From assembly GCF_000422845.1 (NCBI RefSeq), contig NZ_AUGV01000009.1:124001-188000 (forward strand): a stretch of DNA of 64,000 nt, read 5' to 3'. Below are positions 9,735 to 37,606 of this stretch, piece by piece. Each line of letters begins with the position of its first letter. The first letter of the stretch is position 1. Made by a program: the position numbers and the translations under genes. The notes beneath the pieces were generated by a model. The model was not told the origin of the DNA. It made no database searches and was given only the letters and a program-made list of their open reading frames with translations. The DNA comes from Oceanobacter kriegii DSM 6294 (lineage in GTDB: Bacteria; Pseudomonadota; Gammaproteobacteria; Pseudomonadales; Oceanobacteraceae).

Positions 9735-9791
9735 TCGGTTCGGAACGCTAACCCCGGCCTCGCCGAACGGTTACTGTTCCGGAGTTGAATC

Positions 9792-19289: not shown

Positions 19290-20821
19290 GCGACAACACT
19301 CGCCGCTTACAGGTTGGTCCGTTCAACCGGGTTGAAGGTGACCTCGATATTCGACTGGATATCGCTACAGACACCAGCGATGCCAGTGGCAAGGGCAACG
19401 GCAAGGGTACGGGAACGGTAAACAGCGCCCGGGTGAACTCGACCCTGTTTCGGGGTTTTGAACAAATGCTGGTGGGCAAACCCGCCATGGATGCGCTGGT
19501 GTACACCCCACGTATTTGCGGCATTTGCTCGGTGGCGCAGTCCGTTGCCTGTGCCAATGCACTGGCCAACGCGGGCGGCGTGCAACCAACGGCCAACGGC
19601 ATTCGCAGCCAAAACCTGTTGCTGGCGAATGAATCCCTGACCGATTTGCTGACCCACTTCTATCTGTTTTTTATGCCCGATATGGCGCGGCCGGTTTACC
19701 AGCAGCAGAGCTGGTATGAACCAGTGGCCGAGCGCTTTCAGGCCATCAAGGGCAACGCCACCAAACAGGTGTTACCCGCTCGCGCCCAGTTTCTGCATCT
19801 GATGGGACTGATGGCCGGACATTGGCCGCACTCCATGGCCATTCAGCCCGGTGGCAGCAGCAAGGCCGTGACCCGTCAGGAACGGCTGCGGGTGATCTCG
19901 ATTCTGGCGGAGTTTCGCCGCTTTTTGGAAACCACTCTATTTGGTGCCGACCTCGATGCCATCAACGAGCTGGACTCGGTATCGGCATTGACCAACTGGG
20001 CGGCGCAAGACAGCTGGCAGTCTTCCGACCTGCGAACCTTCCTGCATCTGTCGGATCAGCTGACCTTCAGTCAGCTGGGACGCGCCACCGACAAACTGAT
20101 GAGCATGGGCAATTATCCACAGCCGGATCTTGCCGGTAGCAGCCTGTCGTTGCAGGTGAGCCGGGGGCTATGGCTGCCGACGGCAGGATTGCAGCCGCTT
20201 AATACCGACGCCATCAAGGAAGACGTCTCCCACAGCTGGGTGGAAGACGGTAGCGGTGCCGAGCATCCGGCCCAGGGCCATACCGAAGTGTCACTGGCCT
20301 CCAGCGAAAAGCCCCATGCCTACAGCTGGTGCAAGGCACCGCGTTTGAATGGCGAGGTCGTGGAAACCGGCGCACTGGCCCGGGCGGTGGTCAGTCAGCG
20401 ACCGCTGATGACCGAACTGATGCAGCAACAAGGCGCGACCGTACACACCCGCATGCTGGCGCGTTTGCTGGAGCTGGCGTGGATGCTGCCCCAAATGCAG
20501 CAATGGGCCAAAGACCTGCAAGTTGATCAGCCCTACTGCAACAACACAGCACTGGCCAAAGAGGGCGAAGGCGCGGCCATGATGGAAGCCGCCCGGGGCT
20601 CGCTGGGCCATTGGATTCGGCTAAAAAACGGTCGTATCAGCCACTACCAGATTGTCGCGCCCACCACCTGGAATTTCTCCCCTCGCGATGAACAAGGCCA
20701 ACCCGGCCCGCTGGAGCAGGCGTTAGAAGGTGCCCCCGTGATGGCCGCTGAAAAAGACCCTATTGCCGTTCAGCACATCGTCCGCAGCTTCGACCCGTGC
20801 ATGGTGTGTACGGTGCATTGA
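19286..20821 (+). CDS. hupV: Regulatory [NiFe]-hydrogenase (H2 sensor) large subunit
   Basis: A 511-residue subunit that binds the NiFe site through RICGIC (C78, C81) and DPCMVC (C505, C508). It ends exactly at ..CMVCTVH, with no residues after the terminal His. Large subunits of working hydrogenases carry a C-terminal extension removed by a protease; its absence is typical of sensor hydrogenases (HupV/HoxC), which therefore mature without HupD. A Gly/Lys-rich insertion (DASGKGNGKGTGT, ~32-44) lies in an early loop. It overlaps hupU by 4 bp. Sensor activity is inferred from family, context and these features. Confidence 0.95.
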   Translation: MSDNTRRLQVGPFNRVEGDLDIRLDIATDTSDASGKGNGKGTGTVNSARVNSTLFRGFEQMLVGKPAMDALVYTPRICGICSVAQSVACANALANAGGVQPTANGIRSQNLLLANESLTDLLTHFYLFFMPDMARPVYQQQSWYEPVAERFQAIKGNATKQVLPARAQFLHLMGLMAGHWPHSMAIQPGGSSKAVTRQERLRVISILAEFRRFLETTLFGADLDAINELDSVSALTNWAAQDSWQSSDLRTFLHLSDQLTFSQLGRATDKLMSMGNYPQPDLAGSSLSLQVSRGLWLPTAGLQPLNTDAIKEDVSHSWVEDGSGAEHPAQGHTEVSLASSEKPHAYSWCKAPRLNGEVVETGALARAVVSQRPLMTELMQQQGATVHTRMLARLLELAWMLPQMQQWAKDLQVDQPYCNNTALAKEGEGAAMMEAARGSLGHWIRLKNGRISHYQIVAPTTWNFSPRDEQGQPGPLEQALEGAPVMAAEKDPIAVQHIVRSFDPCMVCTVH

Positions 20822-20882: not shown

Positions 20883-21071
20883 TGACTCAGCTACATCACT
20901 TATCTCGCTGACTGCTCTGGAAAGCTTCGTTTTTTGAGCCGCTCTGGAAAGCGGCTATCCACATGCCGTTCCGGGTCGCTATTTCGTGCTGGCTTGACTG
21001 CTTCTTCTGCTGCAAATCAACTTTCCGGTTTGTGTCTTAACTGTCTTTTTGTTTTTGAATTATCCCCGGTT

Positions 21072-21095
21072 CTGTTTTCTCCAAATCCTGTAACC
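21072..21095 (+). promoter_or_regulatory. Shared upstream element before hupS (probable HupR site)
   Basis: The blocks CTGTTT, CTCCAAA and CCTGTAACC recur almost unchanged at 33667-33688 before hupD and were not noticed elsewhere. The element ends 26 bp before a sigma-54 -24 box, close for an enhancer but in the right place to mark the hup regulon. Binding by HupR is inferred; the published R. capsulatus site TTG-N5-CAA is not exactly present. Confidence 0.55.
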
Positions 21096-21121
21096 ATCTG
21101 ATTTTATTGAATAAATGTTCT

Positions 21122-21137
21122 TGGTTCGGTTCTTGCT
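21122..21137 (+). promoter_or_regulatory. Sigma-54 promoter of hupSLC
   Basis: TGGTTC-GGTTC-TTGCT keeps the GG and GC of the -24/-12 consensus (TGGCAC-N5-TTGCA) at exact spacing. It lies 100 bp upstream of the hupS start. The gene for a suitable activator, HupR with a GAFTGA motif, is in the same locus. Confidence 0.7.
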
Positions 21138-21236
21138 GAGGCAAGCGGTGCAACGCATATAACGATAACAACCACCCTGGAAGGTTTCTTTTCAGCCCTT
21201 CTTACCGTGAGTGGTTCGGACGCCAGAGGACACCGC

Positions 21237-22349
21237 ATGTCTCAGATTGAAACCTTCTATGAAGTAATGCGGCGACAGGGGATTACCCGACGCAGCTTTC
21301 TCAAGTATTGCAGCCTGACCGCTGCTGCTCTGGGCCTTGGCCCAAGCTTTGTTCCGCAGATTGCCAACGCCATGGAAAACAAACCGCGCACACCGGTGCT
21401 GTGGTTGCATGGTCTGGAATGTACCTGCTGTTCAGAGTCCTTTATTCGATCCGCACACCCGTTAGTTAAAGACGTGGTGCTGTCGATGATCTCACTGGAC
21501 TACGACGACACCTTGATGGCGGCTGCCGGTCATCAGGCTGAAGCCGCCCTCGAAGAAACCATGAAAAAGTACAAGGGCGAATACATTCTGGCGGTGGAAG
21601 GTAACCCGCCGCTGAACGAAGACGGCATGTTCTGCATCGTTGGCGGTAAGCCATTCCTCGATCAGCTTAAGCACGCCGCCAAAGATGCCAAGGCGATCAT
21701 TGCCTGGGGTTCCTGCGCCAGCTGGGGCTGTGTGCAAGCCGCTCGTCCGAACCCGACCCAGGCAGTGCCGATTCACAAGGTGATCACCGACAAGCCAATC
21801 ATCAAGGTGCCGGGTTGCCCGCCAATCGCCGAGGTGATGACTGGCGTAATCACTTATATGCTGACCTTTGGCAAGCTGCCGGAACTCGACCGTCAGGGCC
21901 GTCCGAAGATGTTTTACGGCCAGCGTATTCACGACAAATGTTACCGCCGTCCGCATTTCGATGCTGGCCAGTTTGTGGAGCAGTGGGACGACGAAGCCGC
22001 TCGCAAGGGCTACTGCCTGTACAAGGTCGGCTGCAAAGGCCCAACCACCTATAACGCCTGTTCGACCATTCGCTGGAACGAAGGGGTGTCGTTCCCAATT
22101 CAGGCCGGTCACGGTTGTATTGGCTGCTCTGAAGACGGTTTCTGGGACAAGGGTTCCTTCTACGACCGTCTGAGCAATATTCCGCAGTTTGGCATTGAGA
22201 AAAACGCCGACGAAATCGGTACCGCCGTTGCTGGTGGTGTGGGGGCGGCCATTGCTGCCCACGCGGCTGTCAGCGCCCTGAAGCAGGCCTCTCGCAAAGA
22301 CACCAAACCCCAGGATTCCACCAAGAAAGAACATGAGGATCACGCATGA
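21237..22349 (+). CDS. hupS: Uptake [NiFe]-hydrogenase small subunit, O2-tolerant type
   Basis: A 370-residue FeS subunit of a membrane-bound group 1d-type enzyme. The start at 21237 gives a Tat signal ([26 protein letters not shown] at 18-23). The proximal-cluster region has LECTCCSES (C62, C64, C65), WGSCASWGC (C160, C165) and VPGCPP (C194): six cysteines instead of the usual four, the signature of the 4Fe-3S cluster of O2-tolerant enzymes. [10 protein letters not shown] and [16 protein letters not shown] bind the other clusters. The C-terminus has a hydrophobic anchor (~320-345), then a Lys/Asp/Glu/His tail. It overlaps hupL by 4 bp. Confidence 0.97.
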
Positions 22350-24157
22350 ACACACCACTGAACGCCAGTCAGCTGGATAACAGCGGCCGCCGGGTGGTGG
22401 TCGATCCGGTGACCCGCATTGAAGGTCACATGCGTTGCGAAGTGAACGTTGACGAGAACAACATCATTCGTAACGCCGTTTCTACCGGCACCATGTGGCG
22501 TGGTCTGGAAGTGATTCTGAAAGGCCGTGACCCACGCGATGCCTGGGCTTTTGTTGAACGTATCTGTGGTGTGTGTACCGGTTGTCACGCGCTGACGTCC
22601 GTACGCGCGGTAGAAGATGCGTTGGGCATCGACATTCCGCTCAACGCTCACATTATCCGTCACCTGATGGACAAGGCGCTGAACATCCATGATCACGTGG
22701 TGCACTTCTATCACCTGCACGCGCTGGACTGGATCAACCCGGTAAACGCGCTGAAGGCCGACCCCAAAGCTACCTCTGAACTGCAAAAAATGGTCTCTCC
22801 GGCCCACGCCAAGTCTTCGCCGGGCTACTTCCGTGACATTCAGAACCGCATCAAGAAGTTTGTGCAGTCCGGCCAGTTGGGTCTGTTTGCCAACGGTTAC
22901 TGGGATAACCCGGCGTACAAGTGTCCACCGGAAGCCGATCTGATGGCGGTGGCGCATTACCTTGAAGCGCTGGATATGCAGAAAGAGATCGTCAAGGTAC
23001 ACACCATTTTTGGTGGCAAGAACCCGCACCCGAACTATCTGGTGGGCGGTGTGGCCTGTGCCATTAACCTCGATGACGTTGGTGCTGCCGGTGCGCCAGT
23101 GAACATGGTGAGCCTGAACTTCGTGCTGGCACGTATTCAGGAAGCGCAGGAGTTCATCAAGAACGTCTACATTCCTGACGTCATGGCCATTGCCGGTATC
23201 TACAAGGATTGGTTGTACGGTGGCGGTCTGGCGGCTGAAAACGTGATGTCCTACGGTACCCATACCGTGGTGCCAGGCGACAAGTCCACCGACTTACTGC
23301 CAGCCGGTGCCATCATCGGCGGTAACTGGAACGAGATCCACGAAGTGGATGTGCGTGACCCATCACAGGTACAGGAATTTGTTGACCACTCCTGGTACAC
23401 CTACGCCGATGGCGCAAAAGGGTTGCACCCATGGGATGGCCAGACCGACCAGCCAAGCTTCGAGCTGGGGCCAAACACCAAGGGCACCAAAACCGACATT
23501 AAAGAGCTGGACGAAGCCCACAAGTACAGCTGGATCAAGGCACCACGCTGGAAGGGTCATGCGATGGAAGTGGGGCCACTGCCTCGCTACATCATCGCCT
23601 ACATTGCTGGTAAGGATTACGTCCGCGACCAGGTGGATCGCTCGCTGGCGGCCTTCAACCAGAACAACGGCCTAGACCTGAACCTGAAGCAGTTCCTGCC
23701 GACCACACTGGGTCGTACCCTGGCCCGTGCGCTGGACGCCGAGCTGTGCGCCGACTCCATGATTGATGACTGGAACCAGCTGGTTCAGAACATCAAGGCC
23801 GGTGACTCTTCCACAGCCAACGTTGAAAAATGGGACCCATCCACCTGGCCAAAAGAAGCCAAAGGTGTGGGCATCAACGAAGCGCCGCGTGGTGCGCTGG
23901 GCCACTGGATCAAGATCAAGGACGGCAAGATCGAGAACTATCAGGCCGTGGTGCCGACCACCTGGAATGGTTCTCCTCGTGACTCCGAAGGCAACATCGG
24001 TGCGTTTGAAGCCTCGCTGCTGAACACCCCGATGGAGCGCCCGGACGAACCGGTTGAAATCCTCCGTACCCTGCACAGCTTTGACCCTTGCCTGGCGTGT
24101 TCTACCCACGTGATGGCACCGGACGGTCAGGAGCTGAGCAAGGTGAAAATCCGCTGA
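22346..24157 (+). CDS. hupL: Uptake [NiFe]-hydrogenase large subunit
   Basis: A 603-residue catalytic subunit that splits H2 at a NiFe(CN)2CO site. Ligands are in RICGVCTGC (C74, C77) and [10 protein letters not shown] (C582, C585). Fifteen residues follow His588 ([15 protein letters not shown]), the extension that the HupD protease removes after nickel insertion. The N-terminal [17 protein letters not shown] block is typical. The sequence resembles R. eutropha HoxG throughout. It is exported folded, riding on the HupS Tat signal. The gene is coupled to hupS and followed after 64 bp by hupC. Confidence 0.98.
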
Positions 24158-24221
24158 AACCGGAGTCGGTAACACCCGTTAGCTTTTGGCTTGCGGGTGT
24201 ACCACTGACAGGAGAAAGGTT

Positions 24222-24998
24222 ATGTCTGAACAAAGCATAAAAACCAACGACGTACCGGCTGCAGCAGTGTCCGCTTCCACCACAACCCAGGTCGAAGACC
24301 CGACCGTTCAGGGAGAACAGGTACGCCGTCAAACCGCCGTGTTCGTTTACGAATGGCCGCTGCGGTTGTGGCACTGGGTGACGGTGCTGTGCATCATCGT
24401 GCTGTGCGTGACCGGCTATTTCATCGGCTCGCCACTGCCCACCATGCCGGGCGAAGCCATGGATAACTACCTGATGGGCTACATCCGCTTTGCCCATTTT
24501 GCCGCAGGCTACGTCTTTGCCATTGCCTTCGTTGGCCGAGTGTACTGGGCCTTCGTGGGTAACCATCATGCTCGTGAACTGTTTATTGTGCCGATCCACA
24601 AGAAGAAGTGGTGGGGCGAGCTGTTTCACGAACTACGCTGGTACATGTTCATCGAGAAAACCCCGAAGAAATACATCGGCCACAACCCGATGGGCCAGCT
24701 GGCGATGTTCAGCTTCTTCGTGATTGGCACCATCTTCATGATCGTCACCGGCTTTGCGCTGTACGGTGAAGGTTTGGGTGTGGGCAGCTGGGCCGACCGC
24801 TGGTTTGGCTGGGTGATCCCGCTGATGGGCCAAAGCCAGGATGTGCACACATGGCACCACCTGGGCATGTGGTACATCATCGTCTTCGTCATGACCCACG
24901 TGTACGTGGCGATTCGTGAAGACATCATGTCGCGCCAGTCGCTGATTTCCACCATGGTAGGTGGATGGAGAATGTTCAAGGACGACAAGCCAGACTGA
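24222..24998 (+). CDS. hupC: Hydrogenase cytochrome b subunit
   Basis: A 258-residue b-type cytochrome that passes electrons from the hydrogenase to quinone. An extended polar N-terminus (~1-37) precedes four membrane helices; His residues in PLRLWHWVTVLCI, YIRFAHFAAGYVFA and TWHHLGMWYIIVFVMTHVYVAIRED fit the two haem b sites of HupC/HoxZ/HyaC. AGGAGAAAGG precedes ATG 24222, so this start is preferred to upstream in-frame ATG 24186. In related clusters hupD follows directly; here 8.8 kb of unrelated DNA intervenes. Confidence 0.95.
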   Translation: MSEQSIKTNDVPAAAVSASTTTQVEDPTVQGEQVRRQTAVFVYEWPLRLWHWVTVLCIIVLCVTGYFIGSPLPTMPGEAMDNYLMGYIRFAHFAAGYVFAIAFVGRVYWAFVGNHHARELFIVPIHKKKWWGELFHELRWYMFIEKTPKKYIGHNPMGQLAMFSFFVIGTIFMIVTGFALYGEGLGVGSWADRWFGWVIPLMGQSQDVHTWHHLGMWYIIVFVMTHVYVAIREDIMSRQSLISTMVGGWRMFKDDKPD

Positions 24999-25022
24999 GC
25001 GTTCGTAGCTACTGCTTGTCTT

Positions 25023-25060
25023 GTAGGAGCGAATTTATTCGCGAATGAATTCGCTCCTAC
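25023..25060. repeat. REP-like palindrome (GTAGGAGCGAATT type)
   Basis: GTAGGAGCGAATT and AATTCGCTCCTAC form a 13-bp perfect stem around TATTCGCGAATG, 24 bp after hupC. A half copy (TCGCGAATAAATTCGCTCCTACA) lies at 45927-45949. Similar GTAGGAGCGA elements are well-known REPs of pseudomonads. Confidence 0.8.
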
Positions 25061-25148
25061 TTGAGCCGCCTGGAGCATGCGACCGCTTTATTCTGGCGCC
25101 GGGAGCGCGGGCCGCTGGCCCGCCTTTCCCAAATCACACGGTGCTCTC

Positions 25149-25502
25149 GTGACAACCAACAAGGTAACAGCCATCAATACCGCAACGGCCATCAAACCGC
25201 TGACTTCCGCCATTCGCAAACCTGCCGCTTTCCCGATGCGCAAACCCGAGCATCCCGGCGTCTTCCTGCAGCGTTGTTACCTGACCCCGCTGGGTATTTC
25301 CCAATCCGACCTTGCCCGCATCCTCGGCGTTTCCCGCCGTCGGGTGAACGAAATCGTCAACGGCCAGCGCGCCATCAGCGCCGATACCGCCCTCAAACTG
25401 GCTGCCCACTTCAACACTACGCCCATGTTCTGGCTGGAAAAACAGCAGTTGTGGGAGCTGTACCGGGCGCTGCACTCGAACCCGCCTGTTAATCTGCGCT
25501 AG
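25149..25502 (+). CDS. HigA-type antitoxin/XRE regulator without a visible toxin
   Basis: About 117 residues from GTG 25149; ATG 25232 is an alternative, and neither has a good ribosome site. The core HPGVFLQRCYLTPLGISQSDLARILGVSRRRVNEIVNGQRAISADTALKLAAHFNTTPMFWLEKQQLWELYRA matches the HigA/VapI addiction-module antidote family. It is an XRE helix-turn-helix followed by the FW..LQ..Y/WDL segment. A HigB toxin would normally precede it, but the upstream DNA holds only a REP element and no RelE-like frame. It may be an orphan or a plain regulator. Its TAG stop forms the left edge of a MITE. Confidence 0.75.
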   Translation: MTTNKVTAINTATAIKPLTSAIRKPAAFPMRKPEHPGVFLQRCYLTPLGISQSDLARILGVSRRRVNEIVNGQRAISADTALKLAAHFNTTPMFWLEKQQLWELYRALHSNPPVNLR

Positions 25503-25767
25503 GGACCCTCTGAAAAACTCGGTGCCCGCTCTGGATGACATGGCGAAGCTGAATCACGAAGCTGATTTGCAGTCCTGACGGGTCAAGTCAAAAATCAGCG
25601 ACACAGAGTCAGCAATGCCCCGCCATCCCCGTAGGGCGCGGCCTGCAGCCCGCCAGAACGGTGTTGGCGAATTTGAAAAGGACCCGTCATTTCGCTGCAT
25701 TCGCCGCCTTGTTCTGACAACCTGCAGGACACGCGCAGAGCTGTGCAGAGTTTTTCAGAGGGTCCCT
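25501..25767. mobile_element. 267-bp MITE, copy 1
   Basis: Perfect 20-bp terminal inverted repeats AGGGACCCTCTGAAAAACTC (25501-25520, complement at 25748-25767) enclose non-coding DNA. The flanks read CTAG on both sides (25499-25502 and 25766-25769), so a CTAG target duplication of the YTAR type used by the IS5 group is likely. The interior is clearly homologous to copy 2 at 36544-36810, with shared blocks such as CCTGACGGGTCAAGTCAAAA, GCGACACAGAGTC and CGTCATTTCGCTGCATTCG, but the TIRs differ. It carries no transposase, so it is non-autonomous. Confidence 0.9.
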
Positions 25768-25937
25768 AGTAACACACTGCGCCAATACTGCTTTGGTACA
25801 CATTTCAGCGTTTTATCAACAACGATGGTGGCATAGGAGCGACTTGTTACCGCTGGCTATACTCAACTGACGGGGCGCGTCAGTGGCGAGCCCTTGCCTA
25901 TACAACCAATGCAGCCAATAACAACAACGAAGCGCCT

Positions 25938-27014
25938 ATGGTTACATCACGTTTTTCTCCATCTTTGGTCCGGCCGCTCAGTTTGCATTTGTTTTCCCGG
26001 GCTTTGCGTCTTATGGCACTGCTTGCGAGCTTGCTGCTGACCTTTTCTACTGCGAACGCCCAGTCCGCGCTACCAAGCGTAAAAGTGGCTGTGCTGCAAT
26101 TCGGCACGCTGAACTGGGAAATGGACGTTATTCGCCAGCACCAGCTGGATCGCAAGCACGGCTTCCAGCTGGATGTGACGCCCGTCGGCGGTAAAAACGC
26201 CAGCTCGGTGGCGCTTCAAAGCGGTGCCGTGGATCTTATTTACAGCGATTGGGTGTGGGTGAACCGTCAGCGTCATGCCCGTCGTATGTACAGTTTTTCG
26301 CCGGTGTCGGCGGCAGCGGGTGGGGTGTATTTACAGCCCGATCTGAACGTCGGTTCGCTGAAGGGTTTTGATGGCCAGCGATTGGGCATTGCCGGTGGCG
26401 CTGTGGATAAAAGCTGGCTGCTGCTGCAAGCCTACGCCAAACAACAGGGCATTGAATTGCAGCAAACCGTGCAGCCGGTTTTCGCCGCGCCCCCTTTGCT
26501 GAACAAGCTGATGTTCGACAACAAGCTCGATGCCTCGCTGAACTTCTGGCATTACAGCGCCCGTTTGAAAGCCCGTGGCTACCGGCCCTTGATCACTGTT
26601 CAGCAGGTGTTGGAAGGTTTGGGTATTCGCTCGCAGGTGCCTTTGGTTGGCTGGGTGGTGAGTGATGATTGGGCGCAAGACAACAGTACGCTGCTGAACC
26701 GTTTTCTGTTGGCATCGAGTGAAGCCCGGCAGATTCTGTTGACCTCCGACGCCGAATGGCAGCGCATCAAGCCGCTGACCAAAAGCGAGGACTACGCCAT
26801 CTTTAATACCTTGCGTGATGAATATCGCAAAGGTGTTCTGACCACTTTCAACGCCGATAACGTCAAGGCGCTGCATGCCCTCTACGATATTTTTGCCCGC
26901 GAAGGCGGCAAGCAATTGACCGGTGGCGCGAATACGCTTGATGACCGCATGTTCCTGATGCCGGTTGAATGTCAGCCAGCTAGCCGTTGTGAGGTTCAGC
27001 GGGTTTCGCCATGA
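25938..27014 (+). CDS. ABC transporter substrate-binding protein, NitT/TauT type
   Basis: A 358-residue periplasmic protein. A basic N-terminus and hydrophobic helix (LMALLASLLLTFSTANAQS) form a signal peptide ending near residue 42. The mature part has the NMT1/SsuA-like pattern VKVAVLQFGTLNWEMDVIRQHQLDRKHGFQLDVTPVGGKNASSVALQSGAVDLIYSDWVWVNRQRHA. The family brings in nitrate, taurine, alkanesulfonates or pyrimidines; this one cannot be assigned a ligand. It overlaps the permease gene by 4 bp. Its position between hupC and hupD could be chance or indicate import of something needed by the hydrogenase; nothing in the sequence shows the latter. Confidence 0.85.
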   Translation: MVTSRFSPSLVRPLSLHLFSRALRLMALLASLLLTFSTANAQSALPSVKVAVLQFGTLNWEMDVIRQHQLDRKHGFQLDVTPVGGKNASSVALQSGAVDLIYSDWVWVNRQRHARRMYSFSPVSAAAGGVYLQPDLNVGSLKGFDGQRLGIAGGAVDKSWLLLQAYAKQQGIELQQTVQPVFAAPPLLNKLMFDNKLDASLNFWHYSARLKARGYRPLITVQQVLEGLGIRSQVPLVGWVVSDDWAQDNSTLLNRFLLASSEARQILLTSDAEWQRIKPLTKSEDYAIFNTLRDEYRKGVLTTFNADNVKALHALYDIFAREGGKQLTGGANTLDDRMFLMPVECQPASRCEVQRVSP

Positions 27015-27790
27015 GCCAGCACGGTAATCCTCCCGCTATTTGGTCATCCCTGCTGTGGTCATCAGTGCCACTGCTGCTGGTACTGGCTGGCTGGGAAATT
27101 GCCGCCCGTTGGGCCGACAGCAGCAATTTACCCGGCCTGTTTGCCGTGCTGGGGAGTTTGTACGAACACCTGTTAGAAGGCGACATGCTGCATCATTTGT
27201 CGGTAACCCTGCTTCGCGTCGCCGTCAGTTTTGCCATCGCCATGCTATTGGGCGTGGTAATCGGCATTGTGATGGGCGCTTATCGACGTCTGAATCTGGC
27301 CGGTGATGCCTTGCTGGTGATCGCCTTGAACGTACCTGCGTTGGTGACGATTCTGCTGTGTTACATCTGGTTTGGTTTGACCGAAGCTGCGGCCGTGACG
27401 GCGGTGGCGGTGAACAAGATTCCAACCGTGGTGGTGATGGTGCGAGAAGGTGCCCGCATTGTGGATCGTCAGCTGCTGGAGGTGGCGCAGGTGTATCGGG
27501 TATCGCGCTGGAAGACTTTCTTCCATGTGTATTTGCCGCAGCTCTACCCATTCATTATGGCGGCGGCGCGGTCGGGTCTGTCGTTAATCTGGAAGATTGT
27601 GCTGGTGGTGGAATTGCTCGGTCGCAGCGACGGCGTTGGCTTTCAGCTGGGTACCTTTTTCCACTTCTTCGATATTGCCAGCATCCTCGCTTACACCCTG
27701 GCGTTTGCCATTGTGATCCTGCTGATTGAAGCCGTTATTATGCGGCCTATCGACCGCTATATTGCGCGGGGTGGCTATGGTCAGGCTTGA
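27011..27790 (+). CDS. ABC transporter permease, NitT/TauT type
   Basis: A 259-residue permease of the SsuC/TauC class with about six membrane helices. The EAA loop that contacts the ATPase appears as LLEVAQVYRVSRWKTFFHVYLPQLYPFIMAAARSGLSLIWKIVLVVELLG. It overlaps the binding-protein gene by ATGA and the ATPase gene by 14 bp, so all three are one translationally coupled operon. No substrate information. Confidence 0.92.
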   Translation: MSQHGNPPAIWSSLLWSSVPLLLVLAGWEIAARWADSSNLPGLFAVLGSLYEHLLEGDMLHHLSVTLLRVAVSFAIAMLLGVVIGIVMGAYRRLNLAGDALLVIALNVPALVTILLCYIWFGLTEAAAVTAVAVNKIPTVVVMVREGARIVDRQLLEVAQVYRVSRWKTFFHVYLPQLYPFIMAAARSGLSLIWKIVLVVELLGRSDGVGFQLGTFFHFFDIASILAYTLAFAIVILLIEAVIMRPIDRYIARGGYGQA

Positions 27791-28505
27791 TCTCGATCTG
27801 AAACAAAAATACTACGCCAGCGCCCAGCAGGCGGCCTTGGGAGAAATCAACGCCAGTATTCCCGAAAGCCAGTTTGTGGCGTTGGTCGGCCCTTCCGGTA
27901 CCGGTAAAACCACGTTGCTGAATATGATCGCCGGGCTGGAGCCCAGCGAACCGGGCACCATCAAGGTGAACGGCCAAAGCCAGGCTCAAACTCCCTGCCA
28001 GCTGGGCTACATCTTTCAACAGCCACGGCTAATGCCGTGGATGACGGTTGAAGAAAATCTGCGACTGACGGCTCCGGAGATCGGTCAAGCTGACATCGAA
28101 GCCATGCTGGACATTGTTGGCCTGCAAGGAAAGGGCGCTGAGTATCCACGTAAACTCTCTGGCGGCATGCAAAAGCGGGTGAGCATTGCCCGCGCGTTTT
28201 TGGCCAAACCGGATTTGTTATTGCTCGACGAGCCGTTTGTATCCCTTGATCAGCCAACCGCGCAACACCTGCGGGGCATGCTGGAAAACCTTTGGCAGCA
28301 GCAAAAGCCCACCGTTATTTTCGTTACCCACGACCTCGACGAAGCCATACAACTGGCCGACCGCGTGCTGTTTTTATCGGCAGCGCCGGGGCGTTTGATT
28401 CTGGACAAAGCGGTTGAGTTGCCGCGTCCGAGGGGAGCGATTGAGGTGGAAGAGTGGAAGCAAGGGTTGCTGGCGGAGCATCCCGGGGTGCTGGCGGGTA
28501 GGTAG
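27777..28505 (+). CDS. ABC transporter ATP-binding protein, NitT/TauT type
   Basis: A 242-residue ATPase with Walker A GPSGTGKTTL, Q-loop YIFQQPRLMPWMTVEENL, signature KLSGGMQKRVSIARAF (LSGGM), Walker B LLLLDEPFVSLD and H-loop VIFVTHDLDEA. The PRLMPW after the Q-loop is typical of SsuB/TauB-type importers. The start at 27777 lies inside the end of the permease gene and gives a normal N-terminus; the open frame from 27726 would overlap the permease further. It completes the transporter. A REP element begins 11 bp after the stop. Confidence 0.93.
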   Translation: MVRLDLDLKQKYYASAQQAALGEINASIPESQFVALVGPSGTGKTTLLNMIAGLEPSEPGTIKVNGQSQAQTPCQLGYIFQQPRLMPWMTVEENLRLTAPEIGQADIEAMLDIVGLQGKGAEYPRKLSGGMQKRVSIARAFLAKPDLLLLDEPFVSLDQPTAQHLRGMLENLWQQQKPTVIFVTHDLDEAIQLADRVLFLSAAPGRLILDKAVELPRPRGAIEVEEWKQGLLAEHPGVLAGR

Positions 28506-28515
28506 CTTCTCGCTC

Positions 28516-28541
28516 GTAGGAGGACGCTTGCGTCCGAATGA
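28516..28541. repeat. REP element flanking the RAYT gene, left copy
   Basis: GTAGGAGGACGCTTGCGTCC is the reverse complement of the REP units at 29026-29216 and has the same orientation as the last unit at 29260-29280. It ends 5 bp before the stop codon of the RAYT gene. Confidence 0.9.
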
Positions 28542-28545
28542 CGGC

Positions 28546-29004
28546 TTACAGCCAAATGGCATCCCAGAATGGGTAGTTTCCCGGTGTATTAACCAAGCCC
28601 GCGCGTAATGGATTCGCGACGATATAGCGAGATGTTTCCTTCAGGTCTTCTTCCTGCCTCAAGGCATGATCATGAAAAGCATGCTGCCAGAGCTGCTCTG
28701 ATATTCCTCTTTGCTGGTTAACTGCTCGGGCTGACAAAGACTTCATCCGCATCACGGTTTTTGAAAGCGTGTCCTCTCCCAGTTGAATCAACCAATGTGC
28801 GTGCTCGGGCATCAGCACCCAGCAGATCAGGGTTGCGTCTTTTAAGGCTCGCTCGGATGTGAATGCCTTGATGGCAGACCTGGCTACATTGAAGTCAAGG
28901 AATACGGCCGTACGATTCAGTGTGGTTGTTGTGACGAGATAGATTCGTCCTGCTTCGGAGAAACGGCCGATACGCAGGTTTCTGTGTCCTTTCGCTGGAT
29001 TCAT
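28546..29004 (-). CDS. REP-associated tyrosine transposase (RAYT)
   Basis: A 152-residue Y1-transposase-like protein from ATG 29004 (MNPAKGHRNLRIGRFSEAGRIYLVTTTT). The HUH motif appears as LMPEHAHWLIQL (H-A-H variant) and the catalytic tyrosine as LKETSRYIVANPLRAGLV, both typical of the TnpA-REP family related to IS200/IS605. It is bordered by six REP palindromes: one just beyond its 3' end and five beyond its 5' end. Such domesticated transposases are thought to cut and spread REP sequences. The longer frame to 29094 would run into the REP array and is not preferred. Confidence 0.9.
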   Translation of the reverse strand: MNPAKGHRNLRIGRFSEAGRIYLVTTTTLNRTAVFLDFNVARSAIKAFTSERALKDATLICWVLMPEHAHWLIQLGEDTLSKTVMRMKSLSARAVNQQRGISEQLWQHAFHDHALRQEEDLKETSRYIVANPLRAGLVNTPGNYPFWDAIWL

Positions 29005-29025
29005 GGTCTGTGTCCTTACAGATCT

Positions 29026-29280
29026 GAATTCGGACGCAAGCGTCTTTCTACAAGGTGTGGTAATTAATCTGACGCTGGAGTCATTCGGACGCAAGCGTCC
29101 TCCTACAAAGCTTGGTCATTAATCTGACGTTGGCGTCATTCGGACGCAATCGTCCTCCTACGAGGCTTGGCGATTAATCTGACGTTGACGTCATTCGGAC
29201 GCAAGCGTCCTCCTACGAGGCTTGGCGATTGATCTGGCGTTTGATCGTTTGGCTCATTCGTAGGAGGACGCTTGCGTCCG
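29026..29280. repeat. REP array beside the RAYT gene
   Basis: Four direct units of CGGACGCAAGCGTCCTCCTAC type start at about 29026, 29081, 29136 and 29191, exactly 55 bp apart; the first has a TTTCTAC end and the third a GCAATCG change. The spacers are also similar (GGCTTGGCGATTAATCTGACG). A fifth unit at 29260-29280 is inverted and abuts the viaA stop. GGACGCAAGCGTCC folds into a hairpin. Confidence 0.92.
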
Positions 29281-29281
29281 A

Positions 29282-30889
29282 TTATCTTTCTTCAACCACC
29301 CGCTTTTTAAACGTTACCAATTCCTTGATTTCACTCCTGTGCGGGTCGTAGACCCATTCCTGGTCGAACAGGTGTTTCATGCGGTCGAGCATGTAGGTTT
29401 CGCCGATGACCAGTGAGTGGAAGTGGTTGCCGCGCTGTTTGGTGGTTTCGATTTTTTCCGGTAGTGGTTCCGGCAGTTCGGCCATCAGGAAGTCGGAGAT
29501 CACCAGCAGGTCGGCGCGGCGGTATTGGTCGGTTTGCATCAGTTCCAGCGAGCGCTCGAGCGCTGGGGTGATGTCGGTGCCACCTTCGAAGCTGCGGGTG
29601 AGGAAGGCCATCAGGTTGTTGCGGTTTTGTTCGGGGTCTTGCTCATCCGACAGTGACAGTTCTTCCACGCTGGTGGAGTAGCTGATCAGCAGGCAGGGGC
29701 GGTTTTCTTCGCGGGCCTGGCTGGCGAGGAACAGGGTGACGGCTTTGGCGACGGTCATCGGTGGGCCGCTCATGGAGCCACTGGTGTCGACGCAGATGAT
29801 CATCGGGCCGCGCACGGCACGGCTGATGTCGGTTGGATCGCCGTCTTCGTCTTCTTCGGGCTGATGATCAAGGCTTTGCACGTCGAAACACATCAGCCGT
29901 GATTCAATAAATTTAAGATCAAACAACAGCTCGGTATCGGGATCGGACAGCAGTGCCAGTTCGCTGGGTAACACGTGTTCGAGGTCACGCCCCAGTCGCA
30001 GGCCGACCAGTTCGTCGCGGGCGTGGTTGTCGTGCCAGTTACCGGTGTTGAGGTCGCGGGCGTTGACTTGTTCCAGTTGCTGCGACAGTTCCAGTTGGCG
30101 CAGTTTGCCGAGCAATTCACTAATGGCTTTGACGCCGTCGTCGTTGTTGAGGTAGTTGCTCCAGCGTTGCAGTTCGCGCAGGTCGTCGGCTTTGATGTCG
30201 GTAGCAGAAAGGTCGAACAGCAGGCCGCTGCTCATGCCCAGCGGTTCCAGCTGATGGTGCAGTTGTCCGAGCAACAACAGCAGTTCGTCGATGTCGGCAA
30301 GAAACTGCTGGCGGCATTCGCTGATGCGTTGCAGTTCCCATTCGCTGCGGGCGTGGTCGAGGGTTTTCTGCCATTCGGCCAGCAGCATTTCGAGGTGGAA
30401 AATCGGGTTTTCATCGACTTCGACGACTTCACCGGAATCGACCACGATGTCTTCGTCCAGATGCAGCCAGTAGTCTTCGTCGAGCGGACGGCTGAGCACC
30501 TGACAGAACTGGCGGAATTCCTTGAATATCTGCTCGAACAGTTTACGGATCGCTGTTTTCGCTGACGTGTCGTCGGTGGCTTGATAGTTATTCTGGTCGT
30601 CCGTTTGCGCTTGGCTTGCCCCCAGTTCAGCGGCCATAGCTACCACCCGGCTTTCCCAGCGGCGCAGGCGCTGTAGCTGTGGCTTGAATGGAAATTCACG
30701 CATCATGATGACGCGGGTGTCTTCGTCCCAGCGTTGTAGCTTGCGCTTGATCAGGTCTTCCGCTTGCGGATTGGAGCGCAGCCAGTGGTCGTGCTGTTGG
30801 CTTAGCTGTTGTTTGATGCTGTGGCCTGCAATACGAACCTTGTCGGCGTCCGGCTGGCTGGATTGAAAGCCAGAATTTGTCATCGACAC
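29282..30889 (-). CDS. viaA: ViaA-like VWA-domain protein
   Basis: A 535-residue cytoplasmic protein. The long helical N-terminal part (1-360) is followed by a von Willebrand factor A domain with the MIDAS motif DTSGS (D368, S370, S372), then GTDITPALERSLE and DLLVISDFLMAELPE. It is cotranscribed with and overlaps the MoxR-type ATPase gene by 10 bp, the ravA-viaA arrangement. In E. coli the pair affects respiratory complexes (Nuo, fumarate reductase) and aminoglycoside sensitivity. The start is probably a GTG with an ATG two codons later. An insert rich in Asp/Glu (EEDEDGDPTD) precedes the VWA domain. Confidence 0.88.
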   Translation of the reverse strand: MSMTNSGFQSSQPDADKVRIAGHSIKQQLSQQHDHWLRSNPQAEDLIKRKLQRWDEDTRVIMMREFPFKPQLQRLRRWESRVVAMAAELGASQAQTDDQNNYQATDDTSAKTAIRKLFEQIFKEFRQFCQVLSRPLDEDYWLHLDEDIVVDSGEVVEVDENPIFHLEMLLAEWQKTLDHARSEWELQRISECRQQFLADIDELLLLLGQLHHQLEPLGMSSGLLFDLSATDIKADDLRELQRWSNYLNNDDGVKAISELLGKLRQLELSQQLEQVNARDLNTGNWHDNHARDELVGLRLGRDLEHVLPSELALLSDPDTELLFDLKFIESRLMCFDVQSLDHQPEEDEDGDPTDISRAVRGPMIICVDTSGSMSGPPMTVAKAVTLFLASQAREENRPCLLISYSTSVEELSLSDEQDPEQNRNNLMAFLTRSFEGGTDITPALERSLELMQTDQYRRADLLVISDFLMAELPEPLPEKIETTKQRGNHFHSLVIGETYMLDRMKHLFDQEWVYDPHRSEIKELVTFKKRVVEER

Positions 30890-32457
30890 AAGGCTTCCAG
30901 TCGTTCGCAGTCCTTGATGCGTAAACGCAGGCTGTTCATTTGTTGTTCGACGCCAACTAACGCCTGATCGGTCAATTCAACGGGTACAAACAGCGAGCGC
31001 AGTTGTTGGCGGTATTCGGCCTGACTGGCTTCAGCACGGGCCACCAGTTCGCTGAGCTCGGCTTTTAATTCCCGTACCGATTGCGCCAGTGAGCTCACCA
31101 GTCGACGGTTCACATCCGGCTTGCGGTCGCCGCGGTAGAACAGCACTTCCGGCTGGAAAATCAGCTCTTCGTAGCGATAGGAATAGTCGCGGTATTCCAT
31201 CCGGCAGCTGCCCTGGCCTTCGAACTGGGCGGTGACTTCGCTGATCTCATTGCCGCGGTCGTCCAGCGGCGAGAAAACATCGCGGGTGCGCAGTTTTTCC
31301 ACCGGAATATAAAGCTCGACTTCTTTCACGTCGCGGTAGTTCACCAGCTCGAACTGGGCGTCGAGGAAGAAGAATTCACGGTCTTCAATGCGTTCGGTTT
31401 TGTAGACGTCCTGGGAGTAAAACAGCTCGTCGTTGATTTCGCGGTCAAGGCGATCCTTGGCCTGATCCAGCGTCGACAGCTGCATACCGGCTTCAAAGCC
31501 AACCGATTGCACCGCTTCCAGCACAATCAGTCCAACGGCGTCGCGGTTGCCTTCCTGAGTCCAGAGGCAGTGGCGCAGCAGCAGGGCGTCGCTGTGGTTG
31601 GTGTTGTTGCGGCCGTGGAAAAATGCTGAGGCTTTCATCAGACGTGCAGCGCGCTGCCAGCGGCGGTCGGAAACGTACACGCCCAGTTCTTCACGTTGTT
31701 GCTCCAGCTGGCTGCGAATCAGGTGAATGATGGTGAAGCAGTCGTTGCTGATAGCAACCTGATCGATCTCGCTTTGCCACTGCAGCCATTCATCTGAGCT
31801 GACCGCCAGTCCGTCGGGCATGTCGACCTTATCGGCAGAGGGGGCGCTATTCAGCAGCTGGTCGAAGTGATGGTTGTGCAGAATCGGAGACACTAGCAGG
31901 CGTACGATAAAACGATCGTAAAGGGCTTCGAGGCCCTGATCCGGCTGTGGCGTTTCGTTGGAAGCGGCGATCAGGGCTTTTAACGGTGCCTGCTCCAGCC
32001 GTTCGCCGTTGCGGAACACCCGCTCGTTCATCAGCGTCAGCAGGGTGTTCAGAATCGCCGGGCTGGATTTCCAGATTTCGTCCAGAAAGGCGAACTCGGC
32101 TTTCGGCAGGTAATGCTTGGTCTTGCGCAGGTACTGGTCCTGTTTCAATGCCTTGATGGATACTGGCCCAAACACTTCTTCCGGCGTACTGAAACGGTTC
32201 ATCAGGTATTCGAAGTAGCTTGGCTCGGTGAACGCTGAGGCAATCCGACGGGAGATCAGGCTCTTGGCGGTACCCGGTGGGCCAAACAGAAAACAGTTCT
32301 GGCCACACAGCGCGCTCAGCAGGGCAACGGCGATGACTTCTTCACGCTCGAACATGCCGGCGCTGATGTGTTCAACCAGTGACTGGATACGGCTCTGAAG
32401 ATCGGTCTGGCTCGAGTTTGGTTGCGGCTGTGGCTGGGCTGATTGTGACTGGCTCAC
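30880..32457 (-). CDS. ravA: RavA-like MoxR AAA+ ATPase
   Basis: A 525-residue ATPase. After a Gln/Ser/Pro-rich start it has Walker A GPPGTAKS (59-66), the RavA-type EYLMNRFSTPEEVFGPVSIKALK and Walker B EFAFLDEIWKSSPAILNTLL (~121-140), then NERVFRNG and ALIAASNETP. The C-terminal third contains the discoidal-domain-like region and a long helix typical of RavA. It forms hexamers in E. coli and works with ViaA. GTG 32457 is the start. It is encoded between hupC and hupD together with viaA; MoxR/VWA pairs often assist metalloenzyme assembly, so a link to respiration or hydrogenase is possible but unproven. Confidence 0.9.
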   Translation of the reverse strand: MSQSQSAQPQPQPNSSQTDLQSRIQSLVEHISAGMFEREEVIAVALLSALCGQNCFLFGPPGTAKSLISRRIASAFTEPSYFEYLMNRFSTPEEVFGPVSIKALKQDQYLRKTKHYLPKAEFAFLDEIWKSSPAILNTLLTLMNERVFRNGERLEQAPLKALIAASNETPQPDQGLEALYDRFIVRLLVSPILHNHHFDQLLNSAPSADKVDMPDGLAVSSDEWLQWQSEIDQVAISNDCFTIIHLIRSQLEQQREELGVYVSDRRWQRAARLMKASAFFHGRNNTNHSDALLLRHCLWTQEGNRDAVGLIVLEAVQSVGFEAGMQLSTLDQAKDRLDREINDELFYSQDVYKTERIEDREFFFLDAQFELVNYRDVKEVELYIPVEKLRTRDVFSPLDDRGNEISEVTAQFEGQGSCRMEYRDYSYRYEELIFQPEVLFYRGDRKPDVNRRLVSSLAQSVRELKAELSELVARAEASQAEYRQQLRSLFVPVELTDQALVGVEQQMNSLRLRIKDCERLEALCR

Positions 32458-32576
32458 GCGGACTCCGTGCGGTGATGGGCAAAAACGGGCTTTGCCATCA
32501 TAGCCTGACCCGCTGCGGGTTTCGATGAGCGTCTCTTGATCGTTTTATTAGGGAAACGAATCTTTTATATTTGCGC

Positions 32577-32592
32577 TTGATAATCTTTATCA
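32577..32592. promoter_or_regulatory. Inverted repeat TGATAA-TCT-TTATCA before the PepSY gene
   Basis: A perfect 6-bp inverted repeat with a 3-bp centre, in an AT-rich stretch between divergent ravA and the PepSY gene, 76 bp before the latter. It could be an operator for a response regulator or an iron/redox regulator; it does not fit FNR (TTGAT-N4-ATCAA). Confidence 0.4.
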
Positions 32593-32667
32593 CATTCCAC
32601 CTGGGCGGTTCGACGCAGAGGAATTCGCCCAATCACTACATTGATAATCAAAAAAAGGGGATGAAAC

Positions 32668-32949
32668 ATGCGTAAGGTTTTGATGGCGGCAGCGATGATG
32701 GCAGCGTCGTCCGTAGCAATGGCTGGGGCTGACTGTCAGGAGCACTCGGAAGCCGAGCAAATGCACATTCTGGATATGCAGAAAAAAATCGTTAATGAAT
32801 ACGGTTTTGCGATCAAGAAGTTCCTGCGCTCCGGCGATTGCTATGAAATCTACGGTTGGGGATTGAGCGACGATGGCAGCAAGTTTGAGCGTATTGAGGT
32901 GTACTTCGATACCAAAACCGGCGCCATCGTGAAGAAAGAAATCGACTGA
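32668..32949 (+). CDS. Periplasmic PepSY-domain protein
   Basis: A 93-residue protein with a cleavable signal peptide (MRKVLMAAAMMAASSVAMA) and a mature PepSY-like domain: MHILDMQKKIVNEYGFAIKKFLRSGDCYEIYGWGLSDDGSKFERIEVYFDTKTGAIVKKEID. The final VYFD.KTG.IVK is the usual PepSY end. Two cysteines (in GADCQEH and SGDCYE) may form a disulfide. AAGGGGATG precedes the start. It is followed after 2 bp by a cytochrome b561-type gene, a pairing common in gammaproteobacteria and often under a two-component system. Function of the pair is not defined. Confidence 0.85.
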   Translation: MRKVLMAAAMMAASSVAMAGADCQEHSEAEQMHILDMQKKIVNEYGFAIKKFLRSGDCYEIYGWGLSDDGSKFERIEVYFDTKTGAIVKKEID

Positions 32950-32951
32950 TC

Positions 32952-33467
32952 ATGGCGGCTAACTCCCACGCCAGCCGCTGGGATTTGCTGGTGCGACTCA
33001 CCCATTGGTGGGTCGCCGCCGTTTTCCTGTGGAATTACCTTTGGCCAGACGACGGTGACGACTGGCACCAGTGGCTGGGCTACAGCTTGTTGGCAGTGCT
33101 GGTGATTCGTTGGGGCTGGGGCTTTGTTGGCCCTGCCAATGCCCGCTGGCGGGATTTCTTTCCGACGCCAGCGCGGGTGCGCCACAGCATTCGCCATTTC
33201 GACGCTGAACATCAGCCGCAAGGCTACCGTCCTCACCATACGCCATTGGCGGGTGTGATGGTGGTCGGGCTTTGGCTGGGGTTGGCGCTGGTGGGCTTCT
33301 CGGGTTGGTTGCAGGAAACCGACCGCTATTGGGGCGAACAGTGGGTGCAGCTGTTGCACGAGTGGAGCGCCAATCTGGTGATGGCTGCTGTGGTCGTGCA
33401 TGTGTCGGCGGTGTTGTGGATTCAGCACAAGTTCCGCTTGCCGCTGGTGCGGTCAATGATTCGTTAA
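32952..33467 (+). CDS. Cytochrome b561-type membrane protein
   Basis: A 171-residue di-haem-type membrane cytochrome b with four helices. Candidate haem ligands are in RLTHWWVAAVFLWNYL, DWHQWLGYSLLAVLVIRWGWGF, HTPLAGVMVVGLWLGLAL and LLHEWSANLVMAAVVVHVSAVLW. The Tyr/His pattern matches Ni/Fe-hydrogenase-like cytochrome b domain proteins, but it is shorter than HupC and not part of the structural operon. It probably accepts or donates electrons at the inner membrane with the PepSY protein as a periplasmic partner. It lies immediately upstream of the hupD promoter region. Confidence 0.85.
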   Translation: MAANSHASRWDLLVRLTHWWVAAVFLWNYLWPDDGDDWHQWLGYSLLAVLVIRWGWGFVGPANARWRDFFPTPARVRHSIRHFDAEHQPQGYRPHHTPLAGVMVVGLWLGLALVGFSGWLQETDRYWGEQWVQLLHEWSANLVMAAVVVHVSAVLWIQHKFRLPLVRSMIR

Positions 33468-33666
33468 AAGCTCCGTTGAGAGCTCTTTTAAGGACTTCGC
33501 TGATTACTTGGTGGGTTCCTTAAACGCGAAGCGGCAGATAACCATCCGCAGGTGGTTATCTGTCTGCCGGGCAGTTCAGCCCCAGAAGGTCGATACAGGC
33601 ACCTCTTGCCTGTAGTGGTAATTAATCTTTCGGTTTTCTTATTTTTTGAAATATAACTTTCCACTC

Positions 33667-33742
33667 CTGTTTCTCCAAACCTGTAACCCCTGCCGTTACA
33701 GTGGCGTTTGCGCGGTTTTTTCCGTTTGGCACAGCTCTTGAT
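33667..33742 (+). promoter_or_regulatory. Shared upstream element and sigma-54 promoter of hupD operon
   Basis: At 33667-33688 the blocks CTGTTT, CTCCAAA and CCTGTAACC repeat the hupS upstream element. The last block is part of a perfect inverted repeat CTGTAAC-N7-GTTACAG (33681-33701) that is only a half-site before hupS. TGGCAC-AGCTC-TTGAT (33727-33742) is a sigma-54 promoter with exact spacing, 76 bp before hupD. The element-to-promoter distance is 12 bp longer than before hupS, about one helix turn. Confidence 0.7.
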
Positions 33743-33817: not shown

Positions 33818-34447
33818 GTGAAGCAACACATTCTGATTTTGGGCATTGGCAACGTGCTGTGGGCCGACGAAGGCTTTGGTGTGCGTTGCGTCGAACACAT
33901 CAATCAACACTTTGAACTCCCCGACAACGTCGAGATTCTGGACGGTGGTACCCAGGGGCTGTATCTGGTTCAGCACGTCCAAAACTGCGACATTCTGGTG
34001 GTGTTTGATGCCGTCGATTACGGCCTTGAACCTGGTACGCTGAAAATCGTGGAAGGTGACGAGGTGCCCAAATTCATGGGTGCCAAGAAGATGAGCCTGC
34101 ACCAGACCGGTTTTCAGGAGGTGTTGGCGCTGGCGGAGTTTGCTGGTGGCTACCCCGATGAACTGCTGTTGTTGGGCGTGCAGCCGGAAGCGCTGGAAGA
34201 CTTCGGCGGCAGCCTGCGTGATGTGGTGAAAGACCAGATTGCACCGGCGGTTCAGATAGCCGTGGACTACCTGGCCGAACGCGACACTTTGCTGGTGCCG
34301 CGCCCGCAAGCCGAGGCCTCAGTAGCCGAAGACCTGTCCCCCAACCAATTAGCCATTCACGTATACGAATCCGGCCGCCCGGACGAAGACGACGCCTGCC
34401 GCATTGGCGATAGCCGCTTTATGCCCAAAACCGAGGCCAGCCACTGA
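33818..34447 (+). CDS. hupD: Hydrogenase maturation endopeptidase HupD
   Basis: A 209-residue nickel-dependent protease that trims the HupL C-terminus. The motif GIGNVLWADEGFGVRCVEHI, the Asp in VVFDAVDYGLEPG and the His in KMSLHQTGFQEVLAL are the three conserved nickel-contacting positions of the HupD/HybD/HoxM family. A C-terminal extension (~165-209) is longer than in HybD. The start is GTG 33818 with GAGG upstream. This is the first gene of a tightly packed maturation operon served by its own sigma-54 promoter. It overlaps hupF by one base (TGATG). Confidence 0.96.
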   Translation: MKQHILILGIGNVLWADEGFGVRCVEHINQHFELPDNVEILDGGTQGLYLVQHVQNCDILVVFDAVDYGLEPGTLKIVEGDEVPKFMGAKKMSLHQTGFQEVLALAEFAGGYPDELLLLGVQPEALEDFGGSLRDVVKDQIAPAVQIAVDYLAERDTLLVPRPQAEASVAEDLSPNQLAIHVYESGRPDEDDACRIGDSRFMPKTEASH

Positions 34448-34803
34448 TGTGTATTGGCATTCCAATGCAAGTGACTCGCCTGCACGGCGATGGCAGCACG
34501 CTGGAGCGTGCCGAATGCCTGCCGTGGGGAGCAATGCCCGGACAAGCCCTGGCTATGGTGGACATCGCACTGGTGGGCGAGGTGGCCGTTGGCCAGTGGT
34601 TGCTGGTGTTTTTGGGTGCTGCCCGTGAATGCCTGACGCCACAGCGGGCTGAACAGGTTGGGCTGGCTTTGCGGGCCTTGCAGCAAGCCGAACTCGGTGA
34701 GCTGGATGGCTTTGATGAATTGTTTGCCGACCTTGACCGAGAGCCACAGCTACCGCCACACCTGCAAGCGCAGTTAAAGAATAATTCCAAGGAAAACGCC
34801 TGA
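34447..34803 (+). CDS. hupF: HypC-family hydrogenase chaperone HupF
   Basis: A 118-residue member of the HypC/HupF family with the invariant N-terminus MCIGIPMQV, whose Cys2 takes part in handling the Fe(CN)2CO unit. It is longer than HypC: a C-terminal helical extension (RAEQVGLALRALQQAELGELDGFDELFADL) is usual for HupF/HoxL. These proteins protect the large subunit in the presence of O2 in R. leguminosarum. The true HypC is encoded at 44137. It shares a base with the ends of both neighbouring genes. Confidence 0.92.
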   Translation: MCIGIPMQVTRLHGDGSTLERAECLPWGAMPGQALAMVDIALVGEVAVGQWLLVFLGAARECLTPQRAEQVGLALRALQQAELGELDGFDELFADLDREPQLPPHLQAQLKNNSKENA

Positions 34804-35207: not shown

Positions 35208-35223
35208 TTTCCGGAGTGACATT

Positions 35224-36255: not shown

Positions 36256-36257
36256 CC

Positions 36258-36810: not shown

Positions 36811-36845
36811 GTAGGTCATCAGCAGGGTAAGAGGGGCGATAGCAC

Positions 36846-37544: not shown

Positions 37545-37606
37545 AACAGCACCAGAACCAGAAAAAGCAGCAACCCGGGCGGTCAATCAGAGCAGGAGTA
37601 CGCAGT

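Follow-up and report, generated by a model that had tools for sequence, protein, structure and literature searches.

We analysed a 64,000-nucleotide stretch of Oceanobacter kriegii DSM 6294 (contig NZ_AUGV01000009.1, positions 124,001 to 188,000 of the forward strand; hereafter the window) that carries an uptake-hydrogenase locus, concentrating on the regions upstream of hupS and hupD and on a small gene behind hupC that encodes a HigA-type regulator and may control the maturation genes. Genes at the locus are ordered hupTUV - hupSLC - HigA-type gene - 8 kb insert - hupDFGHIJK-hypAB-hupR-hypF, and an Rfam scan of 14000–46000 gave no match. The main features are listed below in window coordinates, with putative HupR sites scored in bits by the position weight matrix (PWM) described further on.

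16703–16719, no strand assigned: putative HupR site before hupT, TGGAAAGTAGCCTTGCT (10.8 bits; 32 bp from the site at 16735)
16735–16751, no strand assigned: putative HupR site before hupT, TGAAAAGTTGATTTCCA (14.9 bits)
16883–20821, plus strand: hupT (16883–18298), hupU (18285–19289) and hupV (19286–20821), H2 sensor kinase and regulatory hydrogenase (NCBIfam/Pfam; T, U and V names assigned from gene order and similarity)
20945–20961, no strand assigned: putative HupR site before hupS, TGGAAAGCGGCTATCCA (17.4 bits, the highest in the window)
21011–21027, no strand assigned: putative HupR site before hupS, TGCAAATCAACTTTCCG (13.8 bits)
21072–21095, plus strand: composite before hupS, in which CCTGTAACC is a lone half-site (pattern search, local alignment)
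21121–21137, plus strand: sigma-54 box of hupS, TTGGTTCGGTTCTTGCT (best box within 350 bp)
21237–24998, plus strand: hupS (21237–22349), hupL (22346–24157) and hupC (24186–24998, start uncertain) (NCBIfam)
25236–25502, plus strand: HigA-type regulator, 88 aa (TIGR02607, 89 bits against a cut-off of 47.7; start chosen by comparison with genome G004, a longer open reading frame opening at 25077)
25938–33467, no strand assigned: inserted block between the hupSLC part and hupD (gene content by profile search)
33616–33632, no strand assigned: weak putative HupR site before hupD, TGGTAATTAATCTTTCG (7.3 bits; 31 bp to the site at 33647)
33647–33663, no strand assigned: putative HupR site before hupD, TGAAATATAACTTTCCA (13.2 bits)
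33667–33688, plus strand: composite before hupD (pattern search)
33682–33700, no strand assigned: dyad TGTAACCCCTGCCGTTACA, putative operator of the HigA-type protein (sole perfect TGTAAC-N7-GTTACA in the genome; conserved)
33726–33742, plus strand: sigma-54 box of hupD, TTGGCACAGCTCTTGAT (best box within 350 bp; conserved 25–37 bp past the dyad)
33818–39107, plus strand: hupD, F, G, H, I (rubredoxin), J, K and hypA, maturation genes (profile matches; hupK named from gene order and weak similarity)
39108–44079, plus strand: hypB (39108–40082), hupR (about 40082–41557) and hypF (41557–44079)

The original prediction for this DNA described one composite element, made up of the blocks CTGTTT, CTCCAAA and CCTGTAACC, before both hupS and hupD. 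Both copies were recovered, with the blocks at 21072–21077, 21079–21085 and 21087–21095 before hupS and at 33667–33672, 33673–33679 and 33680–33688 before hupD. The pattern CTCCAAAN{0,1}CCTGTAACC matched twice in the window, compared with 0 matches in 100 shuffles, and twice in the whole 4.5-Mb genome, both times at this locus (reversed control pattern: 0); local alignment of the 300-bp upstreams of hupS and hupD scored 35 and ended at 21095/33688, against a mean of 18.5 (standard deviation 2.1, maximum 24) for 60 shuffled pairs. Both sigma-54 boxes, each TGG-N8-TTG, were likewise found. The exact spacing claimed for the arrangement holds within both boxes, but not among the composite blocks, where two single-base insertions separate the copies. 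At hupD the 12-bp longer distance from composite to box and the extra CTGTAAC-N7-GTTACAG are as described, as is the split of the locus, with 8.8 kb between the end of hupC (24998) and the start of hupD (33818); a sigma-54-type promoter of hupD's own is likewise supported.

The further claim, that the composite is the HupR operator, was not borne out: the element is absent before hupS in the nearest hup-bearing genomes, Oceanobacter mangrovi (L026) and G004 (L029, same genus as the window), and CTCCAAA-CTGTAAC occurred in no other relative's hupS promoter inspected. Local alignments of hupS and hupD upstreams in the sister genomes scored 19–27 and were located away from the composite, and the nearest composite-like case was CTGTTT-N7-ATGTAACCC before hupS of L046 (Marinobacterium arenosum). 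Given relatives without it, the composite was rejected as a conserved operator. We read the hupD copy as a dyad's left arm joined to sequence peculiar to this genome, and the hupS copy as a solitary half-site that the sister genomes lack.

The dyad in question is the 19-bp TGTAACCCCTGCCGTTACA (33682–33700), of which CCTGTAACC before hupD forms the left arm and which takes the form TGTAAC-N7-GT(T/A/G)ACA in relatives. Its gap to the sigma-54 box measures 25–26 bp in 5 rows and 35–37 bp in 17, one helical turn apart (the 22 rows include L053 and L134, which are one genome). Among the 390 genomes searched in the order, five contained the pattern of dyad plus box, each a single time, and among 369 genomes of the class the window's own genome alone did, again a single time; two of the five order matches are the window and G004, and by contig coordinates the other three are hupD promoters already located in relatives. 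Three of 21 hupD promoters carry another dyad, at -14 or +11, where shuffling gave a mean of 0.02; in L045 and L134/L053 this second copy is perfect and overlaps the sigma-54 start region, starting near -14. Four Alteromonas-type loci carry a one-mismatch dyad at -34 of hupS.

Across the loci compared, the dyad goes with the HigA-type gene behind hupC, rather than with HupR or the promoter. Scored as TGTHAC-N7-GTDACA with at most one mismatch, it is found near hupD at every one of the 33 loci that carry the gene and at none of the 38 that lack it (Fisher 5e-21 before kinship correction); the count covers loci with hupC and hupD in order, or with hupD located separately in the genome, at one row per genome, with L032 and duplicate loci left out. 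The tie is to the gene rather than to HupR because in L040 HupR is present and the hupD upstream holds a sigma-54 box and HupR-type sites that score, but both the HigA-type gene and the dyad are missing. Thirteen HigA-less genomes, L090 not among them, contained at most remote relatives of the protein (28–46% identical). Betaproteobacteria have gene and dyad together, the latter as TGTCAC-N7-GTGACA or TGTAAC-N7-GTGACA and in frame within the hupD N-terminus, where Cys is encoded by TGT in 11 of 11 loci as against 23 of 333 elsewhere in those loci; inspected by eye, these stretches showed no sigma-54 box. At the Curvibacter locus L096 the HigA-type gene is not next to hupC, the HPAGD amino acids are kept and the dyad looks decayed. 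A further 120 genomes yielded five strong HigA-type matches (116–139 bits, against at most 92 for the rest), which were kept apart from the 33 (L162 resembles the species of L089); four of the five lie between hupC and hupD, with 0, 0, 1 and 2 dyad mismatches.

The protein itself is a HigA-family helix-turn-helix regulator whose closest relatives in the PDB are PaHigA and GraA. All 23 sequences aligned have R36, E39 and R45, at the positions of Thr40, Asp43 and Arg49 of PaHigA, which are reported from mutation to be essential for DNA binding (PMC6987408). The GraA operator, AAATTAACGAATAACGTTAAGCATTCAGCTCAT, holds TAAC-N7-GTTA (PMC6393540, Table 1), and we infer that one dimer reads this pair, its N7 matching the half-site spacing of the dyad. 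Residue 38 of the recognition helix is N or H; 13 of the 15 loci with H have a TGTCAC arm, compared with 2 of the 17 with N, a count read by eye and uncorrected for kinship. As PF05015, the HigB toxin family, has 0 matches in the O. kriegii genome, the gene was not filed as part of a toxin-antitoxin module. Searches of the open-licence literature, which also covered HupR sites, hydrogenase enhancers, orphan HigA and internal hup promoters, returned no paper linking HigA with hydrogenase or hupD.

A different motif emerged as the candidate for HupR. Palindrome searches by expectation maximisation (EM) gave TGgaAAgt.acTTtcCA in 23 gammaproteobacterial hupS upstreams (log-likelihood 135, against 26–31 in four shuffled sets) and cGGaAAGc.gCTTtCCg in 22 alphaproteobacterial ones (142, against 27–33 in three); although the shuffled sets were run from fewer starts and repeated only a few times, they fall far short of the real data. 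Both sets were chosen from fetched loci, the gamma set omitting, for example, L030, L032, L039, L042, L047, L055, L084, L092 and L105 as well as the near-duplicates L061 and L065, and the alpha set omitting L080, L109 and L113. The DNA-binding helix of HupR is nearly identical between alpha and gamma. We infer that the 17-bp dyad TGGAAAGTnACTTTCCA, found in gamma and independently in alpha hupS promoters, is the putative HupR operator. TTG-N5-CAA, the HupR site with which the original prediction had compared the composite, did not emerge from EM on the 22 alphaproteobacterial upstreams, nor was it found in open-licence literature.

With the PWM, built from 19 of the 23 gamma hupS sites and with the window excluded from training, scores of at least 10 bits were found in 20 of 21 hupD upstreams, compared with 9 among 426 coding segments and 21 among 420 upstreams after shuffling. 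The hupD set of 21 leaves out L030, L039, L044, L047 (which lacks a separate hupD promoter), L053 (the L134 genome) and L065. Where a partner site above 3 bits is present, the two lie 31 bp apart in 13 of 16 hupD upstreams, and 31–32 bp apart in 8 and 20 bp apart in 4 of 16 hupS upstreams. The window holds 6 matches of at least 12 bits, against 2.2 expected. The site at 21011, 110 bp upstream of the -24 box of hupS, has the position seen in relatives, and further matches above 12 bits lie at 21178, after the hupS box, and at 58713, outside the cluster. A HupR-type pair 32 bp apart also precedes hupT (16703–16751), and likewise in L026 and L029; no clear sigma-54 box was found before hupT, and HupR may feed back on the sensor genes hupTUV.

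The hupR product has receiver, sigma-54 activation and Fis-type domains and, like the gamma loci of the window's genus, the sigma-54 contact motif GAFTGA, which reads GSFTGA in six Alteromonas-type loci. The comparison with Rhodobacter capsulatus is a weak one, as four of four Rhodobacterales HupR sequences examined lack GAFTGA and the window's HupR has it. HupR of R. capsulatus works with sigma-70, and the missing GAFTGA in Rhodobacterales is in line with this.

Separation of hupSLC from hupD is common among relatives. Of 22 gammaproteobacterial genomes with a HigA-type gene, 8 have hupD no more than 0.7 kb behind hupC. The other 14 are split, four by a gap of 4–10 kb and ten with hupD outside the downstream DNA retrieved but elsewhere in the genome (the contig of L046 stops after 2.2 kb); in Neptuniibacter sp. 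PT1, judging by contig positions, hupS and hupD are about 0.86 Mb apart. The insert is wholly missing from O. mangrovi, where hupC to hupD measures 664 bp, and G004 shares the ABC, RavA- and ViaA-like genes, in the position they have in the window, where the insert contains the following.

25938–28505: ABC transporter
28546–29094, minus strand: REP-associated tyrosine transposase
29282–32457, minus strand: ViaA- and RavA-like pair (MoxR-VWA)
Within 25938–33467: PepSY protein and cytochrome b561

The first ABC transporter gene (25938–27014, 358 aa) had no Pfam/NCBIfam match at 0.001. The split did not give rise to the second promoter, since the six contiguous hupSLC-higA-hupD loci whose hupD upstreams were taken (L026, L052, L059, L060, L070 and L073; also L065) have a sigma-54 box and dyad at hupD too. 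Because the same promoter stands in contiguous loci, it is probably older than the split, and a complete control region at hupD would account for the frequent breaks at this point of the cluster. As a separate observation, L033 (G001, same genus, about 90% complete) has hupTUV at 5549–10400 without any match to HupL; its H2 sensor may be an orphan.

These patterns suggest a mechanism in which HupR would bind TGGAAAG-N3-CTTTCCA dyads, often two of them 31 bp apart, upstream of hupS and hupD and, judging by conservation, drive both sigma-54 promoters, so that two operons would answer to the same H2-sensing activator, each with a different second control. The hupSLC operon would also encode the HigA-type protein, a dimer of which would bind TGTAAC-N7-GTDACA between the HupR sites and the hupD sigma-54 box, centred near -62 or -72, and gate the maturation operon hupDFGHIJK. 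Structural subunits and maturation factors would then respond to one H2 signal, each at its own threshold, as a feed-forward loop, and the complete control region at hupD would let the maturation half move away with its regulation kept. That HupR activates both operons and a HigA-type dimer gates hupD and the maturation genes has, in our estimate, a probability of roughly 0.7. As to sign, we lean towards negative action on hupD, because second dyads at -14/+11 and betaproteobacterial dyads inside hupD fit repression. The broader proposal, that a toxin-less HigA antitoxin was recruited to uptake-hydrogenase operons as a dedicated regulator of maturation genes, forming a feed-forward loop with HupR in gamma- and betaproteobacteria and working in trans even where hupD now lies in a different part of the chromosome, seems to us only a little better than an even bet.

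Several observations weigh against this proposed arrangement. On the HupR side, 14 PWM matches of at least 8 bits in the window, against 18.8 expected, are no excess, and in O. mangrovi the hupD match of at least 10 bits lies downstream of the box, the upstream site at the expected place scoring 9.5 bits. On the side of the dyad, TGTAAC-N7-GTTACA with up to two mismatches is not enriched across the genome (82 matches per strand; reversed control, 267); the 33 positive loci are related, belonging to two broad lineages, gamma and beta, and so are not 33 independent events; and among the later genomes the dyad has one and two mismatches in L164 and L165, and L166 combines a strong HigA-type match with no hupC or hupD in reach and no dyad. 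For the nearest relatives, PMC6393540 reports that a single GraA dimer does not bind alone and that the distal half-sites are nearly non-specific, and its authors name half-sites unlike the N7 pairing; GraA and PaHigA are described as needing two dimers per operator, with the DNA unbent (PMC6393540, PMC6987408).

The same dyad could be bound by the HigA-type protein with the opposite effect, the protein serving as a phase-locked architectural or contact co-activator in the place that IHF takes at other sigma-54 promoters. The position between enhancer and box, the one-turn phasing and a gene within the hupSLC operon, by which the protein would be made when maturation is needed, all suit this idea, as does the 46.5-degree bend reported for DNA bound by MtHigA3 (PMC7340258). 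However, the nearer relatives GraA and PaHigA leave DNA unbent, the HigA proteins in the cited papers are repressors, and dyads over the start site and inside betaproteobacterial hupD suit repression better; we regard co-activation as possible, at clearly less than even odds. Co-occurrence alone cannot name the binding protein, and another regulator co-inherited with the HigA-type gene might read the dyad, but HigA-family operators, as described in the sources cited above, have a similar half-site spacing and AAC/GTT core, the contact residues of the HigA-type protein are invariant and its residue 38 goes with the half-site sequence, making such a regulator improbable.

Sharing of the composite by both promoters beyond chance is what recommends it as the HupR operator, a reading made very unlikely by its lack before hupS in sister genomes, by the better fit of the recurrent TGGAAAG dyad and by L040, with HupR and no dyad. 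Least probable of all is that the dyad is an RNA hairpin, an attenuator rather than a protein site: it is a perfect inverted repeat in many genomes and is transcribed in betaproteobacteria, but its gammaproteobacterial copies stand upstream of where transcription starts, and in many copies TGTAAC faces GTAACA, so that the middle pair is lost.

Under the reading we prefer, HupR activation with a HigA-type gate at hupD, the system resembles HupT-HupUV-HupR (HoxJ-HoxBC-HoxA) in its hupTUV and hupR genes, HupR domains (receiver, sigma-54 activation, Fis-type helix) and sigma-54 boxes, and departs from it in a second sigma-54 promoter at hupD with HupR-type sites and in an extra regulator with its putative operator. 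With PaHigA, GraA and MtHigA3 it shares the TIGR02607 family, contact positions and TAAC/GTTA half-sites; unlike HigA antitoxins, it lies in a hydrogenase operon in a genome where no PF05015 HigB was found, and its putative target is not its own promoter but a sigma-54 promoter that serves other genes. The hupSL promoter of Rhizobium leguminosarum, which is sigma-54 dependent, has a comparable layout of enhancer, intervening factor and sigma-54-type promoter. There, NifA acts and IHF bends the DNA that separates enhancer from promoter (cited in PMC2661322), whereas here the intervening protein would be HigA-type, on a strict dyad and specific to hupD.

If true, this would add an extra regulator to a well-studied H2-sensing circuit, offer a concrete case of an antitoxin turned metabolic regulator and provide a HupR operator consensus open to testing in many genera. 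It would also explain why breakage recurs at one junction of the hydrogenase locus, since the maturation half holds a complete control region.

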